From a virus, in the IMG/VR virus record IMGVR_UViG_3300005919_000019, positions 1-20,430 of that record: a stretch of DNA of 20,430 bases. The stretch is one strand, 5' to 3'. Made by a program: the position numbers and the translations under genes. Below are positions 2,271-19,003 of this stretch, one piece after another. Numbering within the stretch: position 1 is the first letter of the stretch; each line of letters opens with the position of its first letter. The notes beneath the pieces are model-generated. The model had not been told where the DNA came from. It saw only the letters and a list, made by a program, of their open reading frames with translations, and made no database searches.

Positions 2271-3065
2271 CTATGTCTTATTGAGTATCGAGCGTAGCTC
2301 TGCAGTCACCTTCGAGTGCGTTTGCGGATCGAAGATGCGTCTTAATTGCGAGTCTCCTAGCAGAGTGGACGGGTCCGGGTCTGCGTCGAAGAGTGCAGTG
2401 AACGTGTTGAGCCTTTTGATTAAGTTGCGTACTTGTTCTGAGCTTTTGATGACGAGGATCCCGAGGTCGTTGGCCTCTTCCTGTTCTCCATCGAGCGCCG
2501 ATCGCGTTGTTTCAATCATCTTCCTGATATCTGAAGCAGAGCCACCACGAAGCGCCATCTGAAGAACGCCGATCTGTGACCGGACATCATCGATGTTCGC
2601 CTCGGGATTGGCTGCGAAGTTCCGCATCAGGATAGCTACCTCGTAAGACTTGATTTCGGTATAGTGCCAGATCCCATCAGAGTCTTTCTTCTGTTGGATG
2701 ACGTCGAAGCCGTGCGACATCTGGGAGTAATACCCCGCCGCTAGATTCTCTCCAGAAGGATCGGGCAACCCTGCATAAACCTCGGCTGCGTCCTTCGAGT
2801 ACTCAATGTTCAGAGATCCATGAACAAGCAAACCAGTATTGTCTTCCGCGCACCGTGCGAGCCCGATACCCATCCACGGCATGTGGAAGAACGTGATGGG
2901 GAGCTCACCTTTCTGAGCCTTGAGCGTCCTCTTGAATGCGCCTTCGTCGATGATCGTATTGTACGAATCCTTATTCCCGAAGACGGAAGCATGACCAGTG
3001 AAGTCTCCTTCTCTGCCTTCGGCTCTTAACTCGCGAACCTCTAGAGGCACTGCGAGATACTTCAT
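2271..3065 (-). CDS. Prohead maturation protease, HK97 (U35/S78) family
   Basis: A 264-residue serine protease that cleaves the capsid precursor inside the immature head. The family signature is clear: FTGHASVFGNKD and IDEGAF near residues 22-44, the probable catalytic His61 in FFHMPW, the probable catalytic Ser117 in QMSHGF, and YEVAIL followed by NPEA around 141-155. The C-terminal 100 residues are a predicted helical tail, as is common in this family, and may act as a scaffold. The ATG at 3065 overlaps the stop of the portal-MuF gene (ATGA, 3062-3065), suggesting translational coupling. The stop is TAG. The capsid gene follows after 12 bp. Confidence 0.92.
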   Translation of the reverse strand: MKYLAVPLEVRELRAEGREGDFTGHASVFGNKDSYNTIIDEGAFKRTLKAQKGELPITFFHMPWMGIGLARCAEDNTGLLVHGSLNIEYSKDAAEVYAGLPDPSGENLAAGYYSQMSHGFDVIQQKKDSDGIWHYTEIKSYEVAILMRNFAANPEANIDDVRSQIGVLQMALRGGSASDIRKMIETTRSALDGEQEEANDLGILVIKSSEQVRNLIKRLNTFTALFDADPDPSTLLGDSQLRRIFDPQTHSKVTAELRSILNKT

Positions 3066-5140
3066 AAGCCACCTCCGTTAAGTTGTTCTGCATCAGGCCC
3101 CGTTTCGTAGAGTTCCTGACAGTTACAATTCACCGTCTCTTCTGCCGAACCGCTGGGATCGCCCGGATACATGAGCCCGTTCGGGTACGTTGCATTAATT
3201 GCGTAGATCGTCCCATCATCTAGTGCCGCGTGTGAGTCGCGCATATCTCCTGACCGCGCAGAGATCCATCGCTTACCCGTCACTACACCTGTTTGAATCG
3301 CGGCCTCATGAGAAGCGAATCCACTTGCTCCATGAATCTCTGTCCTTGCGATCGTCATCGAGCGGCTCTTGTCGAATGGGAGCTCAGGATCCTTTCCACC
3401 GAATCTCTCGTAGAGCCCTTGGAGTTGACGCGCTGTATCTACCGCGCTTGCACCTTCGAGAGCTGCCTTGTCCACTACACGCTTCACTCGAGAGATCGTC
3501 TTTGCTTGGATCTTGTCAACCTGTTCCGCTACCTGGCCTTCGACAAAGGAAGTGATCGCGCCGGTATAGGCGTCGAATCTAAGACTAGCTCTCTCGGTAT
3601 TTCCGAGGATCTCTGCTTCTACGTCTTTCCCTATCCGATCGATGGTTACTCGCCAGGAAGCTGTGAGAACGATTCTCCATGCCTCTGCTTCACCACGGAT
3701 AAGCGCCTCGTAGTTGGTGTTGCCTGCCTTCCAGTGGTTTTCTATCAGCTTCCCTTCTTCGAGGAAGCGTTTGGATACGTTCTTGCCCATCGCTCCTGCG
3801 TAGGCTTGCTGCACACGATCGCGCAGAATCCACCGGGCGTCGATTGAGCTTTCGTCGGCGTTGATAGCTCTGCTCTGGATTGACCTGCCTTGAGATGTGT
3901 TATTCAAAGGCAGCATTCCCGCTTGCATGAATCCGGTATCAGGGCATGCCCATGACGGCAACCCAAGGTCAAGGGCGACGTTGATCGCCCGAATGTTGAT
4001 TCCCATTTCCAGATAATACTTTGCGATTCGAGCATTCTGCCGACGCATCTCTACCACTGGGGGGGATTGAGAAAGGTCGTGTACGAAAACAACGTCATCG
4101 CCAAAGAGAGGAGCGAGCTGTAGGTTGATAGCCGCAAGCGCCGACTTAGCATTTGGGAGCGTCTCATTAGTCCACAAGAACACTTCGGCCATCTGCTGGT
4201 TTTCAAAGGTAGCATCAGCCACTCCGAGCAGAACAGGGTGAACGCCAAGCCCAAGGGCAAGCTTTCTATCTGTCAGCTTGATCGATTCAGTGAAGTCCAT
4301 CTCTGCAGGTGTGCCCATGAGCGACTGGAAGTAGACACGGGTGCGCGCCAGTAGCATCTTTCTGAAGTTCTTCGGCCCTCTCTTCGTCTTCACAATCTGA
4401 GTCTTGATTTCCTCAGATTGCTTCGGTGAGAGATCGCCCGAGATGATCCCCGAAGGTAAGACAGCATTATCGAATGAGAACTTCTGTGCATCCTGAATCG
4501 AGTCAGCTACATCTGCTCTCCTCTGCGTTGGCTGTAGTGTGGCTATCCCCGTGTGTTCGTTGATGGGATCGTACTGGACGATATGGACAATCTCCTCAGA
4601 TTTATATACTTGCGCATCCATACCGAAGCCAGGTTTGTAGACGTACTCAAGCTCAGTCTCATTGACAGGCCGAGGTCTTACAAGATCGGGACGAAGCGGC
4701 CAGATTTCAATCAGCCCGGCTTTCGCGTTGACGTTGTTGATCTTCCAGATGATTGCGCCTTTGAGGTCACGAGCGAATGACAGCCGGTACATGATGTCTC
4801 GCCAGCTTAGGCGGGGGTTCGGCTTTCGAGCGAACTTCACAGCACCATGCGTTGCAGGCAAATCTGTGAGTGTCCCATCAGGGAGAAGTCTTTTCGCTTG
4901 AATGGGGATTGAGGATTCTGCGTTCGCCCGGATTCGCAGACAGCGAGCAATGAGTTCGTTCTTTCTGAAATACTTGCGGACTGCTTTCTCATAGTCCCAG
5001 TCCGACCAGAGCGATTGACCGATAGCAGTCTGACCCCAGAACGGAGGGACATCACCAGTCAGCCTTTTCGCTATTGCAGTCCAGATAGTGTCTCGAAGCC
5101 CACTGCGTACACTGTCTCCCAGGAAGTCTCTAAAGCCCAT
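3062..5140 (-). CDS. Portal protein fused to a MuF-type head morphogenesis domain
   Basis: This 692-residue protein joins two head proteins that are usually separate. Residues about 1-430 read as an HK97-type phage portal, the ring at the head vertex through which DNA passes (for example AIIWKINN, the WPLRPDLVRP strand, SEEIVHIVQYDP, and KLTDRKLALGLGVHPVLLG). After a helical linker, residues about 480-680 match the MuF (Mu gpF / SPP1 gp7) minor head protein: RSMTIARTEIHGASGF near 593, DMRDSH at 632-637, YPGDPSG, and the terminal NCNC at 671-674. The start ATG at 5140 has GGGAGA about 8 bases upstream and is the first gene after the promoter at 5180-5209. The stop TGA overlaps the protease start. 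No frameshift or internal stop is seen, so the fusion appears genuine. No extra toxin domain follows the MuF part. Confidence 0.9.
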   Translation of the reverse strand: MGFRDFLGDSVRSGLRDTIWTAIAKRLTGDVPPFWGQTAIGQSLWSDWDYEKAVRKYFRKNELIARCLRIRANAESSIPIQAKRLLPDGTLTDLPATHGAVKFARKPNPRLSWRDIMYRLSFARDLKGAIIWKINNVNAKAGLIEIWPLRPDLVRPRPVNETELEYVYKPGFGMDAQVYKSEEIVHIVQYDPINEHTGIATLQPTQRRADVADSIQDAQKFSFDNAVLPSGIISGDLSPKQSEEIKTQIVKTKRGPKNFRKMLLARTRVYFQSLMGTPAEMDFTESIKLTDRKLALGLGVHPVLLGVADATFENQQMAEVFLWTNETLPNAKSALAAINLQLAPLFGDDVVFVHDLSQSPPVVEMRRQNARIAKYYLEMGINIRAINVALDLGLPSWACPDTGFMQAGMLPLNNTSQGRSIQSRAINADESSIDARWILRDRVQQAYAGAMGKNVSKRFLEEGKLIENHWKAGNTNYEALIRGEAEAWRIVLTASWRVTIDRIGKDVEAEILGNTERASLRFDAYTGAITSFVEGQVAEQVDKIQAKTISRVKRVVDKAALEGASAVDTARQLQGLYERFGGKDPELPFDKSRSMTIARTEIHGASGFASHEAAIQTGVVTGKRWISARSGDMRDSHAALDDGTIYAINATYPNGLMYPGDPSGSAEETVNCNCQELYETGPDAEQLNGGGL

Positions 5141-5209: not shown

Positions 5210-5238
5210 GAGAAAGAGGGCTGATTGGGACAGCCCTC
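5210..5238 (-). terminator. Rho-independent terminator after the small RHH gene
   Basis: On the minus strand GAGGGCTG (5231-5238) pairs perfectly with CAGCCCTC (5216-5223) around a 7-base loop, followed by TTTCTC. The short T-rich tail runs straight into the -35 of the next promoter. It would end the transcript carrying the 70-aa gene, the HNH remnant and the RHH gene. Confidence 0.7.
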
Positions 5239-5278: not shown

Positions 5279-5479
5279 CTACTTCTTGCCTGACGATTGC
5301 AACAGCTCTGGATCTATCCCTGTCCCACTGTGGATTTCGTGGTAGTGGAGCAGGCGTCTGATAATCTCGTCATAGCTCGGTTTGTGGTAATCGGAGAACT
5401 GTTCACCGACCACCCTGAGCCTTACTGCGGTAGATTTGGAAACCCAGATTGTTGTCTTGCCTTCTCCTGTTCTTGCCAT
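5279..5479 (-). CDS. Small ribbon-helix-helix-like DNA-binding protein
   Basis: A 66-residue protein with the shape of a ribbon-helix-helix regulator: a strand TTIWVSKSTAVRLR near residues 9-22, then a helix containing YDEIIRRLLHYHE. Such proteins usually bind DNA as dimers and act as local repressors or antitoxin-like factors; no toxin partner is seen here. I place the start at ATG 5479 rather than the upstream in-frame ATG at 5497, because GGAGGAAC (5484-5491) sits at ideal distance from 5479. The gene overlaps the 3' end of the HNH reading frame by 58 bp in a different frame and is followed by a terminator. It could regulate the nearby promoters, which is inference. Confidence 0.65.
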   Translation of the reverse strand: MARTGEGKTTIWVSKSTAVRLRVVGEQFSDYHKPSYDEIIRRLLHYHEIHSGTGIDPELLQSSGKK

Positions 5480-5832
5480 TCTAGTTCCTCCCGCCATCTG
5501 GCGATGTTGCTTATCCTCGCGTGTGCACTAGTAGTCAAAGATTGAAGATGCTCAGGGTTAATACAGAGCGAGTACCCGCACTTGTGATGAACGTCTCTTT
5601 TCTTGATGTCTTGGTAGTCCAATCCGTTAGCCAGGCAAAAGGCTACCCGGTGTGCGTAGAGGTGTGAGCGTCCGCTACCTCCCCGAATAGCCCAGCGAAC
5701 ACACCCGTATGGATTGCCCCGTACTCCTGGACTCGTCGCGCCTGTCCAGATTCAACAGCCATTCGCCTGCTTCTCAATTCGCCCCCAGAAAGCTATGAGA
5801 ATTTCCGGTGCGATGAGGTCGATTAGAGGCAT
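5422..5832 (-). pseudogene. HNH endonuclease with an in-frame TGA at codon 27
   Basis: Reading from ATG 5832 (preceded by GGGAGG) gives 136 sense positions interrupted once, by TGA at 5752-5754. Before it: FWGRIEKQANGC; after it, in the same frame: IWTGATSPG, YAHRVAF, DVHHKCGYSLCINPEHL and a charged tail to a normal stop at 5422. This is the layout of phage HNH endonucleases that read F-W-x-x-V/I-x-K-...-GC-W-x-W-T/x-G-A, with the HH and N-P-x-H-L catalytic part at the end. The TGA replaces the conserved Trp after GC, one base from TGG. No ATG or GTG restarts the frame; the first candidate is TTG at 5622, which would lack the N-terminal half. HNH proteins beside terminase genes often assist cos cleavage and packaging. 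It may be a recent pseudogene, a sequencing error, or a gene read through at UGA. Confidence 0.8.
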
Positions 5833-5862
5833 TTCCTCCCGTCCTTTGGTTCTGTGACAACC

Positions 5863-6075
5863 TCATGGCATTCGCGTATAAAAACTTTTCCCGCGAGCGA
5901 CAATAACCCGATCTGTGATTCCTCTTATAACAGGGCAATCAGCCAGATTAATCTGCCCGCCGTCACGGATGATGCTGCGCTCATCGCGAGTAAGCCCGAA
6001 TACTCGTCGCGCCCCCAATTTACTGCCCCAGACATTGCAATATCCGGTTGATGTGTACCGTTTGTTGGCGTTCAT
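5863..6075 (-). CDS. Hypothetical 70-aa protein
   Basis: I do not recognise this small basic protein. It is the first gene after the strong promoter at 6103-6131, and its ATG at 6075 has a perfect AAGGAGG eight bases upstream, so translation is very likely. No CxxC motif, signal peptide or membrane segment is visible. The C-terminal half (DRVIVARGKSFYTRMP) looks like a short beta-rich unit. The HNH reading frame starts 30 bp downstream, and the two probably share a transcript that ends at the terminator at 5216-5238. The stop is TGA. Confidence 0.7.
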   Translation of the reverse strand: MNANKRYTSTGYCNVWGSKLGARRVFGLTRDERSIIRDGGQINLADCPVIRGITDRVIVARGKSFYTRMP

Positions 6076-6102
6076 TTGTCTTGCCTCCTTGGCTACACGA
6101 CC

Positions 6103-6131
6103 AGTATACTATAGTTCCTCTATAGAGTCAA
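6103..6131 (-). promoter_or_regulatory. Near-consensus sigma70 promoter upstream of the 70-aa gene
   Basis: The minus strand has TTGACT (6126-6131) and TATACT (6103-6108) with the optimal 17-bp spacer. The spacer is CTATAGAGGAACTATAG, two copies of the palindrome CTATAG around AGGAA, and the decamer CTCTATAGAG (6118-6127) covers the edge of the -35. This arrangement suggests a strong promoter with a built-in operator. It drives the 70-aa gene 28 bp downstream of the -10. Confidence 0.82.
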
Positions 6132-6255: not shown

Positions 6256-7761
6256 TTAATCGTCCAGGTCAATCCAATCCACGCCACCGCCTGCGCTATC
6301 AATCAGCAAGTCAGTTAATCCCCATACTACGCTGTCGATCCTATTGGGGCTCCATTTGCTACGTCGAGGGCCTCTCCCGATCCACTGGCACTGCTCATCT
6401 TCGAGGTCGTCAAGGTCGGCGTGTAGGTCGTGATGCACCAAGCCTTGCTTGTACTTGTTCGCAACAGGGTCAGCACGTTGGAACTTGCCACGAGAGGCGT
6501 GTACCAGGCACACCTCAACGTCGTCTCCGTCGAGCTTCTGGCCTTCCCACTCTGCCGAGGATACTTGAATGTTTCGCTTGACAAGCATGTACCCGAAGTT
6601 CTGTTCTGCAACGATTCTGCGGGTATTGAATTCCAGGCACAGTTCAAGCGCGCGTGTACCCCATTCATCCGGCTCATAGTGATCTGAGGAATCATTGAGA
6701 ACAACACCGTGACCGTCTACGCGCCTGCCTTGCACAGTGATCCCCGTGAGATCGCTTGATGCTTGGCCACTGCCTGCGGGATCGATTGCGACATTGATGT
6801 CTTCGAGTTCGGGGATGATGACAGCTTCGCGGAAAGGATCGATCATCGTCTCGGCAGTCCAGAGCGCGCCCTCGATATCGGCAGTAGGATCTTGCTGATA
6901 GAGCGCCCCCCAGAGACGACCGCCTAGCCCTCGTTTGAGTGAAGCGAGAGCCTTCTCATTGAAGCGCCAGGGCCAAAGCGCCTCACCCTTCTTGCGGCCG
7001 AGAGGATCGTCCTCTAAGGCCAGCGCAGGCAGGCTTACGACTTTCCACTGTTCACCACCCTTGTCCATCTCTCGAATGAGCCTTCCTGCGAGGTCACCTG
7101 AGTGCCAGCGTGTCATTAAAAGAACTATCGCACCACCAGGAGCAAGACGAGTACGAACGGTCGAGCGATACCAGTCCCAGACACGACGCTGGACGATGAG
7201 GCTTTCGCCGTCGTCGATGTTCTTTACCGGGTCGTCGATAACGATAAAGTTCCCCCCGCGCCCAGTGAGAGGACCACCGACACCGGCAGCTTGGAGCTTT
7301 CCACTCTTGCCGTGTAGATGCCAACGAGCGACGGCGGAAGAATCGCGTGAGATGTCAGGCCATCCGTAGACCTCAGCAGCCCGTAGGTAGTTCGTGCGAG
7401 CATCCCTGCTCATGTCGAGAGCAAGGTCCGCACCATAGGAGGCGATGATTGCCTCCATGTCCTGATTGCGACCGAGAAACCACGGAGGAAAGAGACGGCT
7501 GATTAATTCTGATTTCCCATGCCTGGGAGGGAAACTTACGATCAAAAGGTACGGCTCATCCTGTTCGCCGGAAGCAACGTGAGCCTCGGCCTCCATCAGT
7601 AGAGAGCAAAGCATCTGGAGATGAGCGGCCGTCTGCCATCGCCCTTCTGAGATAGTAATGCAGAATTGTTCTAGATCACGCCTAGCTAATTCAGCTTCAA
7701 TCCTCTGAGCTTCCTGGGAGACTTGGGACATCATCATCACCGCCTTCAATGTCGATGACAT
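6256..7761 (-). CDS. terL: Terminase large subunit
   Basis: This 501-residue protein is the DNA-packaging motor, with an N-terminal ATPase and a C-terminal RNase H-like nuclease. Visible motifs are a terminase-type Walker A PPRHGKS (78-84), Walker B FIVIDD (172-177), the coupling motif LLMTRWH (214-220), and the nuclease aspartate in NVAIDPAG (323-330); further acidic residues follow near VVWGLTDLLID. The reading frame opens at ATG 7761, but GGAGG touches that codon, leaving no spacing. Translation may instead begin at one of three successive ATGs at 7737, 7734 and 7731, behind AAGGCGG. The 5' end overlaps the small terminase gene by 41-65 bp. The stop is TAA, followed by a terminator. Confidence 0.93.
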   Translation of the reverse strand: MSSTLKAVMMMSQVSQEAQRIEAELARRDLEQFCITISEGRWQTAAHLQMLCSLLMEAEAHVASGEQDEPYLLIVSFPPRHGKSELISRLFPPWFLGRNQDMEAIIASYGADLALDMSRDARTNYLRAAEVYGWPDISRDSSAVARWHLHGKSGKLQAAGVGGPLTGRGGNFIVIDDPVKNIDDGESLIVQRRVWDWYRSTVRTRLAPGGAIVLLMTRWHSGDLAGRLIREMDKGGEQWKVVSLPALALEDDPLGRKKGEALWPWRFNEKALASLKRGLGGRLWGALYQQDPTADIEGALWTAETMIDPFREAVIIPELEDINVAIDPAGSGQASSDLTGITVQGRRVDGHGVVLNDSSDHYEPDEWGTRALELCLEFNTRRIVAEQNFGYMLVKRNIQVSSAEWEGQKLDGDDVEVCLVHASRGKFQRADPVANKYKQGLVHHDLHADLDDLEDEQCQWIGRGPRRSKWSPNRIDSVVWGLTDLLIDSAGGGVDWIDLDD

Positions 7762-11638: not shown

Positions 11639-11899
11639 TCAAGATACCCTCCAGACGCGTATACCACCATCAACCTTGCGGGTAGTGGTCTTGAAACCAT
11701 GCCGTCGAGCTTGTCCACGGCACGCTATTCTCACACCATCAGACCCAGTTGACGGCATTTGTTCTTCTGGGATAAAGAACGATTGACCAACAGCTAGATC
11801 CATCACGGGGTATTTCCTGTTTTTGTCATAATTGCCATTCTTCAGGACATCGGGGATTGAGATTCCATTTTCGATTTCTGGCAATGTCTTATTCTTCAC
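11639..11899 (-). CDS. Hypothetical 86-aa protein of a recurring phage type
   Basis: The sequence has a pattern seen in many small phage proteins: KYPVMDLAVGQSFFIP, then an Arg/Ala-rich helix (ACRGQARRHGFK), then TTRKVDGGIRVWRV at the C-terminus. The family is uncharacterised as far as I know. GTG at 11899 is the likely start, because GAGAGGTG lies just upstream; the frame stays open to 11953, where another GTG has no good site. It is the second gene after the repeat-rich region. The stop TGA leads directly into the next start. Confidence 0.65.
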   Translation of the reverse strand: MKNKTLPEIENGISIPDVLKNGNYDKNRKYPVMDLAVGQSFFIPEEQMPSTGSDGVRIACRGQARRHGFKTTTRKVDGGIRVWRVS

Positions 11900-16770: not shown

Positions 16771-17667
16771 CTACGCTTCAGTGGGCTCTAAGGGGCTCTC
16801 GTTTCCCTCCGCACCATCTGAAGGCGTCGCTGGCTGCGTTCCTTTTATCGGATGAGCGCCGTCCTTCACCGGTTCGCCATCGATGTCGATGAAATTCTTC
16901 AGGCCCATCTTCTCGTCTTCGTTCTTGACAGTACGCGCGATGCTCTGACGGTCCTCTTCACTGAGAGGCATGATCGCGATAGCGGCTCGGACGACACCCT
17001 TCACTAGCATGTCTTCGGTGTAATTCCGATACGCGGGAGAGAGAGGTGCTTTGCTTCCTAGCCTGAGCTTCTCAAGCTCCTCAGCCCACTTGAACTTGAA
17101 GGATCGCACACCGCCTACTGTCCAGGTGACATACGCGCCAATAAGAGAGCCAGCAAGCGCGCCGTCTTTCCCGTTTGATCCCCCGGTAGCTATCCAACAC
17201 TTGCGGTCAGGTGTTGGCCGTGCTGGGGTGTGTTTCAAGATTGGGCTATCGCCCAACTGGTACTCGAAAATGTCTTGCTCGTAGACCGCTGCCGGCATGA
17301 TCGATTCAACACGCCCTGAACGATAAACGAGCTGTACGAGTCCCTTCCAGCCAGCGATGAATACAGCTTCCATCACCTTCTGCTTGTGATCGAAGAATGG
17401 GACGATCCACGCCATCCCGAGCGTCCCTGAAGGATCAAGGGCTAGCTCTGCCGAGGCGGTAAGCGCGAGAATCATCGACTGCTTCGTACACTGCAGCAGC
17501 TTCGGCTCTTTCGATGTAGCTAGACACGCAAGCTTGAGTAGTCGCCCTGCGTCTAGCTGGTTTGGGAGGATGTTGTCGAGCCCTTCTTGTAGCGCAACGG
17601 CCAGTGACTTCATCCCTGCCTGCGACCCAACTACGGGTAGCTGGTCGCTCTTAGTTGCTTGCACCAT
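16771..17667 (-). CDS. recT: RecT-family single-strand annealing protein
   Basis: A 298-residue recombinase that coats single-stranded DNA and anneals complementary strands. Family features are visible in order: LLKLACLATSKEPKLLQCTKQSMI (about 44-67), LALDPSGTLGMAWIVPF (about 75-91), FIAGWKGLVQLVYRSG (about 103-118), and a C-terminal WAEELEKL plus AYRNYTEDMLVKGVVRAAI segment. The last 50 residues are Pro/Gly-rich and probably disordered. The ATG at 17667 overlaps the ATPase stop by 17 bp and has GAGGAG about 10 bases upstream. Together with the nuclease and ATPase upstream it forms a recombination module. The stop is TAG. Confidence 0.9.
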   Translation of the reverse strand: MVQATKSDQLPVVGSQAGMKSLAVALQEGLDNILPNQLDAGRLLKLACLATSKEPKLLQCTKQSMILALTASAELALDPSGTLGMAWIVPFFDHKQKVMEAVFIAGWKGLVQLVYRSGRVESIMPAAVYEQDIFEYQLGDSPILKHTPARPTPDRKCWIATGGSNGKDGALAGSLIGAYVTWTVGGVRSFKFKWAEELEKLRLGSKAPLSPAYRNYTEDMLVKGVVRAAIAIMPLSEEDRQSIARTVKNEDEKMGLKNFIDIDGEPVKDGAHPIKGTQPATPSDGAEGNESPLEPTEA

Positions 17668-19003
17668 CGGCTACCATCTCCTCAAGGTTGATCCCCACGC
17701 CGTCACGCATGAAGACGGCGATCCCTTCTGCCTTCGCTTCTTCCTCAGTGTCGATGACACGCTCGAAGAAGACGTAAACGCCGTGCTTCTTGGCTACCTT
17801 GTCGAGCTTCCCACGGTGAACCCTGTCGTACAGGGAGCCTTGGTTGACCAGGATAATCGGTACGTCTGGATTCTGCGCAATCGAGATAGCGATGTCTGCG
17901 TCCATCTGTTCGACCTGGCTCGCTTGCTCCAGTGGTTTGTTCTTCAAGCGCACGACACCGTCTTCCCAGGATAAGCCTCCAGGGATCTTGGCCTCTGCTA
18001 GCAGCTTCTTCTTCTCATCGTCGATCTCGCGTAGCTGGCCCGTGAGCCCCGTGCTTTCATCTTTGTATGCCGTGTACTCAGCCGCTGCCTTAACCCGGTC
18101 AGCGTTCGACCGGATCTGGTTGTTGACCTCTTCGGCCCCTGCGATCTGGATGTTGATAGGACCGAGGTCGAAGTCCTTCAGCTTGGCTACTGATACTTGC
18201 ATGGCTTTGTACTTCTTGTCTGCTGCTGCGTACTCATTCTTCGATGAAACCCAACGCGCCTGCGCGTCTTCAGCCTGAGACTGCAAGCTATCACGGTATT
18301 TCTTGGTGTCCTCAAGCTCGAGGCGTTTGTCCTCAAGCTCACGTCGAGAGGCTCGGTTCTCAGCGTTGCCCGCGTTCTGCTTATTCAGCTCAGCCATGAG
18401 ATCGGTCACGGACACCATCAACGTCGGGGCGTCCGGATAGCTCGGCATTGCATCAACCCGATTCTTGAGAGCGTCAGTCGCGTGGTTGACTTGCGTGCGC
18501 CGTGTATAGATCTCTTCACGGTTTGCGTCAAGCGCGGTGAAGTCCAGCCCTGCGCACCGCTGCAAGAGAGCTATCCGATCCGCGTTGGCCATCCCTATCA
18601 GAGGCTTCAAGACCATGCTGTGCGCGCCGATGAGCTTGTCCATCAGCTCCTTCGGTCGAGGTAGTGCGCTGCCGGCCGCTACGCCTTCAAGGGGTGTAAC
18701 TATGAATTCTTCCTTGAGGCTACCGTCCTCCTGTAGTACCCCTGTTCGCGCTAGACCTAACCCCAGTTCGTTCAACTTCATACTTAGCGCGTAGCCTGGA
18801 GCCCCTTCATGAACCGGCTCTGAAGGCGTGAGCTTCTTCCCTCCGAAGAGGTTCGATACAGCGTTAAGACCGCTTGACTTTCCAGCCTCGTTCGGCCCTC
18901 CAATTTCGGTACATCCTGGCACGAGGATTACGTGAAGGTGTTTGATCCTCTTGTAGTTCTCGACCAGGAGATCTATCGTGCCGCCCTGCTTCTTCGTTGC
19001 CAT
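17651..19003 (-). CDS. Rad50/SbcC-like coiled-coil ATPase
   Basis: A 450-residue P-loop ATPase. The Walker A is GPNEAGKSS (36-44), typical of RecF/SMC/Rad50 proteins. Residues about 200-345 are heptad-rich coiled coil (RRELEDKRLELEDTKKYRD and similar). The C-terminal ATPase half has a signature-like ASQVEQMDADIAIS (361-374), then PIILVNQGSLYD (382-393) in the Walker B position and VYVFFERV. The Walker B site lacks the usual Asp-Glu pair, as I recall also being degenerate in relatives found in phages. It is far shorter than Rad50 or SbcC, and no Mre11/SbcD-type phosphoesterase is present; the adjacent PD-(D/E)XK nuclease may be its partner. ATG 19003 has GGAGC upstream, 27 bp after the nuclease stop. 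Confidence 0.8.
   Translation of the reverse strand: MATKKQGGTIDLLVENYKRIKHLHVILVPGCTEIGGPNEAGKSSGLNAVSNLFGGKKLTPSEPVHEGAPGYALSMKLNELGLGLARTGVLQEDGSLKEEFIVTPLEGVAAGSALPRPKELMDKLIGAHSMVLKPLIGMANADRIALLQRCAGLDFTALDANREEIYTRRTQVNHATDALKNRVDAMPSYPDAPTLMVSVTDLMAELNKQNAGNAENRASRRELEDKRLELEDTKKYRDSLQSQAEDAQARWVSSKNEYAAADKKYKAMQVSVAKLKDFDLGPINIQIAGAEEVNNQIRSNADRVKAAAEYTAYKDESTGLTGQLREIDDEKKKLLAEAKIPGGLSWEDGVVRLKNKPLEQASQVEQMDADIAISIAQNPDVPIILVNQGSLYDRVHRGKLDKVAKKHGVYVFFERVIDTEEEAKAEGIAVFMRDGVGINLEEMVADGASN

Follow-up and report, generated by a model that had tools for sequence, protein, structure and literature searches.

Results and discussion

Gene arrangement at the locus

The window analysed here, i.e. 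the whole 20,430-nucleotide stretch of the IMG/VR virus record IMGVR_UViG_3300005919_000019, carries on its minus strand an HNH_3/His-Me-finger endonuclease frame (5422–5832) that is interrupted once. Read directly from the sequence, the frame extends from the ATG at 5832 to 5422 and comprises 136 codons followed by TAA, with one internal stop only, a TGA at 5752–5754 on the minus strand. This TGA is codon 27; it is flanked by the residues NGC and IWTGA and adjoins the invariant Cys26, while the HNH_3 core is intact and lies 3' of it (5515–5658, minus strand). Normal translation up to the TGA would give a product of 26 residues that ends before the catalytic core.

The frame lies within a hypervariable accessory slot (approximately 5463–6095, as defined by BLASTN breakpoints) that has no homology to the 84%-identical relatives described below. 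Upstream of the slot is the gene of the terminase large subunit (6256–7761, minus strand), identified by profile matches, and the slot's upstream edge is marked by a predicted sigma-70-like promoter, TTGACT-17-TATACT (6103–6131, minus strand). A similar promoter sequence is found at this edge in relatives with a filled slot. The promoter contains the element CTATAG-N5-CTATAG, and similar CTATAG repeats recur there in the relatives; as judged from sequence, they could possibly represent an operator for the RHH-like protein encoded downstream.

The first gene of the accessory cassette is a 70-aa ORF (ORF70; 5863–6075, minus strand) which ends in TGA and to which no function is assigned. By chance it shares its frame with the HNH gene, resulting in one frame with two TGAs. 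A fused ORF70-HNH protein was considered and rejected, as ORF70 has no homologue outside the identical contigs (see below) and the N-terminus of the HNH product from ATG 5832 already matches the family.

3' of the HNH gene follows a small gene (5279–5479, minus strand) which is kept in relatives and which was termed RHH-like by eye, profile searches with its product having given no significant family match. Its start is overprinted on the 3' end of the HNH gene, so that the last 19 or so HNH codons (5479–5422) overlap with it in another frame. It is followed by a terminator-like hairpin (5216–5238, minus strand), one such hairpin having been found against 0.8 expected by chance, and by the portal protein gene (3062–5140, minus strand; profile matches), which is also kept in relatives and whose TGA stop is part of an ATGA overlap.

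Apart from codon 27 no second lesion is present in the HNH frame and the HNH core is kept. The original prediction that there is no frame damage elsewhere therefore holds for the core and for the number of stops, but the C-terminal tail provides no independent evidence of an intact frame because of the overlap with the RHH-like gene. Codon usage of the frame is slightly above that of shuffled sequence, its length being too short for this value to be informative.

Identity of the interrupted gene

When codon 27 is read as Trp, the product matches the Pfam family HNH_3 (PF13392) with 29.1 bits, above the cut-off of 24.8 bits, as well as PHROG 1872 (3.3e-18) and PHROG 826 (6e-17), which bears out the assignment as an HNH endonuclease. 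The profile matches begin at residues 12–15 and extend beyond residue 100. They thus span the TGA, showing that both sides of it belong to one protein, and confirm the originally predicted HNH-like frame with its single TGA. A working HNH_3/PHROG 1872 enzyme is expected to have an uninterrupted frame, and the gene studied here departs from this by its TGA.

The AlphaFold2 model of the product (TGA read as Trp) is fairly confident (mean pLDDT 85.8), and codon 27 forms part of a strand in it. The solved folds that match it best include those of I-PpoI, I-HmuI and NFI DNA-binding domains, none of these matches being significant, and a sequence search of the PDB with the HNH product gave no match. 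The product and its homologues share an invariant Cys26, His83, Cys85, Cys90 and His95, a set of residues which we take to resemble the zinc/catalytic pattern of I-PpoI.

The stop might be bypassed by an internal start, e.g. the TTG at 5622, which would give a shorter protein consisting of the HNH core without the first half. A 66-aa ORF (5622–5422) that keeps residues 71–136 does exist. However, its product would be devoid of Cys26, the first strands and the helix 60–69 of the predicted fold, the TTG has no clear ribosome-binding site, and homology to the family already begins at residue 12, upstream of this TTG. We therefore consider such a protein quite improbable.

Further copies of the TGA

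Two further contigs contain the same gene. IMGVR 3300022858_000320 (31,653 bp) matches the window with 100% identity along 13,919 bp and IMGVR 3300023246_000301 (15,386 bp) along 10,795 bp, the TGA being included in both cases (this pair is L002/L003 in our numbering). All IMG/VR contigs were also scanned with a pattern in which codon 27 could be any YGN; only these two contigs were retrieved, both with TGA. The three copies are clonal and each contains one nonsense codon as its sole lesion.

The same TGA in two further contigs rules out an error confined to one assembly, and the sequencing error that had been offered as one explanation is disfavoured. A minority allele, also proposed originally, is disfavoured at the level of contigs, where the scan returned TGA copies only. 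Given the agreement of three contigs, it is very improbable that the TGA arose in sequencing or assembly or that a sense codon prevails in a mixed population.

Tandem-like internal repeats (L038:5396–6351) were observed in an ORF of 1303 aa on the 31.6-kb contig, which perhaps encodes a tail protein.

TGA as a stop codon

If UGA were read as Trp by the phage or its host, a lone TGA at a position that is usually Trp would be accounted for. The use of TGA elsewhere, however, is that of a normal stop. In the window, TGA terminates 11 of the 29 listed frames. Four of these TGAs are contained in an ATGA overlap, the ATG being the start codon of the following gene (at 3062, 10489, 13293 and 16321), and one in a TTGA overlap (at 11639). 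TGA is likewise the stop of portal in each of the nine relatives, and of terS in each of the six, that could be read there, and the stop of the RHH-like gene interchanges between TAG and TGA among the relatives (rows L041–L043 of this comparison are repeat contigs of L017, L030 and L032). These observations agree with the original statement that TGA is a normal stop and that wholesale recoding is unlikely; UGA recoding was accordingly rejected and we regard a change of the genetic code as extremely improbable.

Specific aids for decoding were not found either. ARAGORN detected no tRNA, and hence no suppressor tRNA, on the window, the 31.6-kb contig or close relatives, so that suppression by a phage-encoded tRNA was dismissed. 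A CTGGAC...GTCCAG stem begins shortly 3' of the TGA, but folding of this region is no better than that of shuffled sequences (z -0.06 to 0.48), and a selenocysteine or readthrough hairpin was rejected on these grounds.

The residue at codon 27

The TGA had been described as lying exactly at a conserved tryptophan. Among 22 homologues readable at this position Trp is indeed the majority residue (16/22); it is not invariant, however, the others being His, Tyr, Arg, Ile and twice Leu. In the nearest homologue (L004) the residue is Arg, encoded by CGC. Judging from these sequences, the ancestral codon may have specified Trp (TGG) or else Arg (e.g. CGA), and each of these codons is one transition away from TGA. 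None of the HNH homologues examined has an internal stop within the matched core or a stop at the position of codon 27. One apparent second case of an interrupted homologue (L071) was discarded, since the TGA counted there is the ordinary end of the gene.

The coincidence of the stop with a Trp codon is only weakly informative. With codon 27 taken as TGG, nonsense changes make up 4.8% of the single substitutions possible in the HNH frame, and Trp codons account for 12 of the 21 nonsense transitions, which means that a stop at a Trp codon is often expected from simple decay. A lone stop at such a codon should therefore be viewed with caution, as it does not need a recoding story.

The accessory slot in related phages

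Relatives were gathered by portal and terminase searches, and most of them are 92–93% identical in protein and approximately 84% in DNA; a search around the ATPase (17654–19003) found no additional ones. Nine records cover the site wholly or partly, namely L016, L017, L018, L019, L022, L028 and L029 (92–93%), L032 (86%) and L021 (71%), where percentages refer to the protein identity of portal or terminase. None of the nine has the HNH gene in the slot, many of these records being fragments, and when eleven whole records were searched with the HNH protein, only the two identical contigs gave a match.

The slot is occupied by a 103-aa protein of PHROG 503 in L017, a 116-aa DUF7694 protein in L016, L022 and L028, a 71-aa protein of PHROG 926 in L018 and a 75-aa protein in L032. 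It is empty in L019 and L029, and the more distant L021 has unrelated genes there. The gene thus occurs patchily among close relatives, its fixed site being empty or taken by other genes where it is absent, as is characteristic of homing genes. Retention together with the terminase in close relatives, as for HK97-type nucleases, is not seen at the slot. The original suggestion of a packaging nuclease between terminase and portal is not supported by these data, as a slot without the HNH gene in nine relatives argues against an essential packaging nuclease.

Two other insertions were noted among the relatives. In L029 (3560–4570), and also in L031 and L018, an intein-like insert with an HNH_3 ORF splits the terminase large subunit gene; the insert of L029 has an Intein_splicing match, and the terminase of the window has no such insert. 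A second insertion follows the RHH-like gene in L016 (665–1570) and L022 (2718–3623) and encodes a 301-aa protein with a SocA/Panacea antitoxin-like domain.

Origin and fate of the gene

Taken together, the gene is very probably an inactivated accessory gene of the homing type that leaks at most traces of full-length protein, in keeping with the pseudogene named as one option at the outset: a single TGA precedes the core, and relatives lack the gene at the slot. Phage homing endonuclease genes are known to cluster near terminase and capsid genes and to replace one another, and one such gene is thought to have been inactivated by a frameshift (PMC10448857). In the classical homing cycle activity is lost after fixation, once the homing gene no longer spreads (PMC1654191).

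A homing-type HNH/His-Me-finger gene, carried with ORF70 in a variable cassette between the terminase and the RHH-like gene, would have arrived in the slot. A single nonsense substitution in codon 27, until then TGG or possibly CGA or another Arg codon, would later have introduced the stop before the catalytic core, leaving the 26-residue peptide as the normal product and the gene effectively null, with rare near-cognate reading of UGA giving at most traces of the full-length enzyme. The phage would tolerate this loss because the gene is dispensable, as relatives without it at the slot suggest. We infer the origin as a homing-type passenger, the inactivity and the restriction of readthrough to traces from the observations above.

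The HNH frame is otherwise clean, which points either to a recent change or to selection for some residual function. Given one lesion and 4.8% nonsense substitutions, decay could be very fresh or the gene up to a few percent diverged.

Of the bacterial stop codons UGA is the most prone to leakage, and in E. coli and Salmonella its readthrough amounts to at least 1e-3 to 1e-2 (PMC4989110). Accidental leakage at the level of these enteric bacteria could possibly yield traces of the full-length HNH protein without any selection. The same leakage would also permit a functional low-level expression, in which tRNA-Trp reads the UGA and a small, selected amount of endonuclease is made; that Trp is the family's usual residue at codon 27 and that the remainder of the frame is clean would fit with this. 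The stem after the TGA is however no more stable than shuffled sequence, no homologue has a stop at this position, relatives do not have the gene in their slot and a suppressor tRNA was not detected in the sequences searched. The deliberate UGA readthrough raised in the original prediction is disfavoured by these findings and we regard it as unlikely. In a related proposal, to which we attach little probability, the gene would be kept behind a leaky UGA at a Trp position as a built-in throttle, rare misreading by tRNA-Trp supplying trace amounts of a costly or self-cutting endonuclease. If selected readthrough were true, it would represent an unusual dosage control for a selfish nuclease.

On our preferred explanation, inactivation of a homing-type gene, the TGA appears to reflect the ordinary decay of a passenger that the phage can dispense with, and not special decoding. 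The locus neatly illustrates, on a small scale, the gain and loss of passenger nuclease genes next to the packaging genes of phages.

Comparison with known systems

Like the HK97-type packaging HNH nuclease (PMC10448857), the gene adjoins the terminase gene. It differs, however, in being located on the portal side of the terminase and in being missing from the slot in phages whose terminase and portal are 92–93% identical, and it is therefore no fixed component of packaging. With the free-standing phage HNH-3 homing endonuclease genes (PMC10448857) it has in common the HNH_3 domain, the place beside the terminase, the absence at the slot in close relatives and the variable occupants of this slot. 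It differs from these in its nonsense codon and in that no C-terminal DNA-binding domain was found in its product, and its homing origin is a presumed one.

The homing endonucleases I-PpoI (His-Cys box) and I-HmuI (HNH) are weak, non-significant fold matches (E 0.07 and 0.28, respectively), from which the phage gene is further set apart in that it is not intron-encoded. Escherichia phage N4 gp22 endonuclease and Mycobacterium phage Peterson gp6 are likewise of the PHROG 1872 type and have a similar core, with approximately 32–33% identity to the HNH product, although their frames are uninterrupted. The gene of Peterson gp6 is located near the terminase small subunit gene, and N4 gp22 has His instead of Trp at the position of the TGA.
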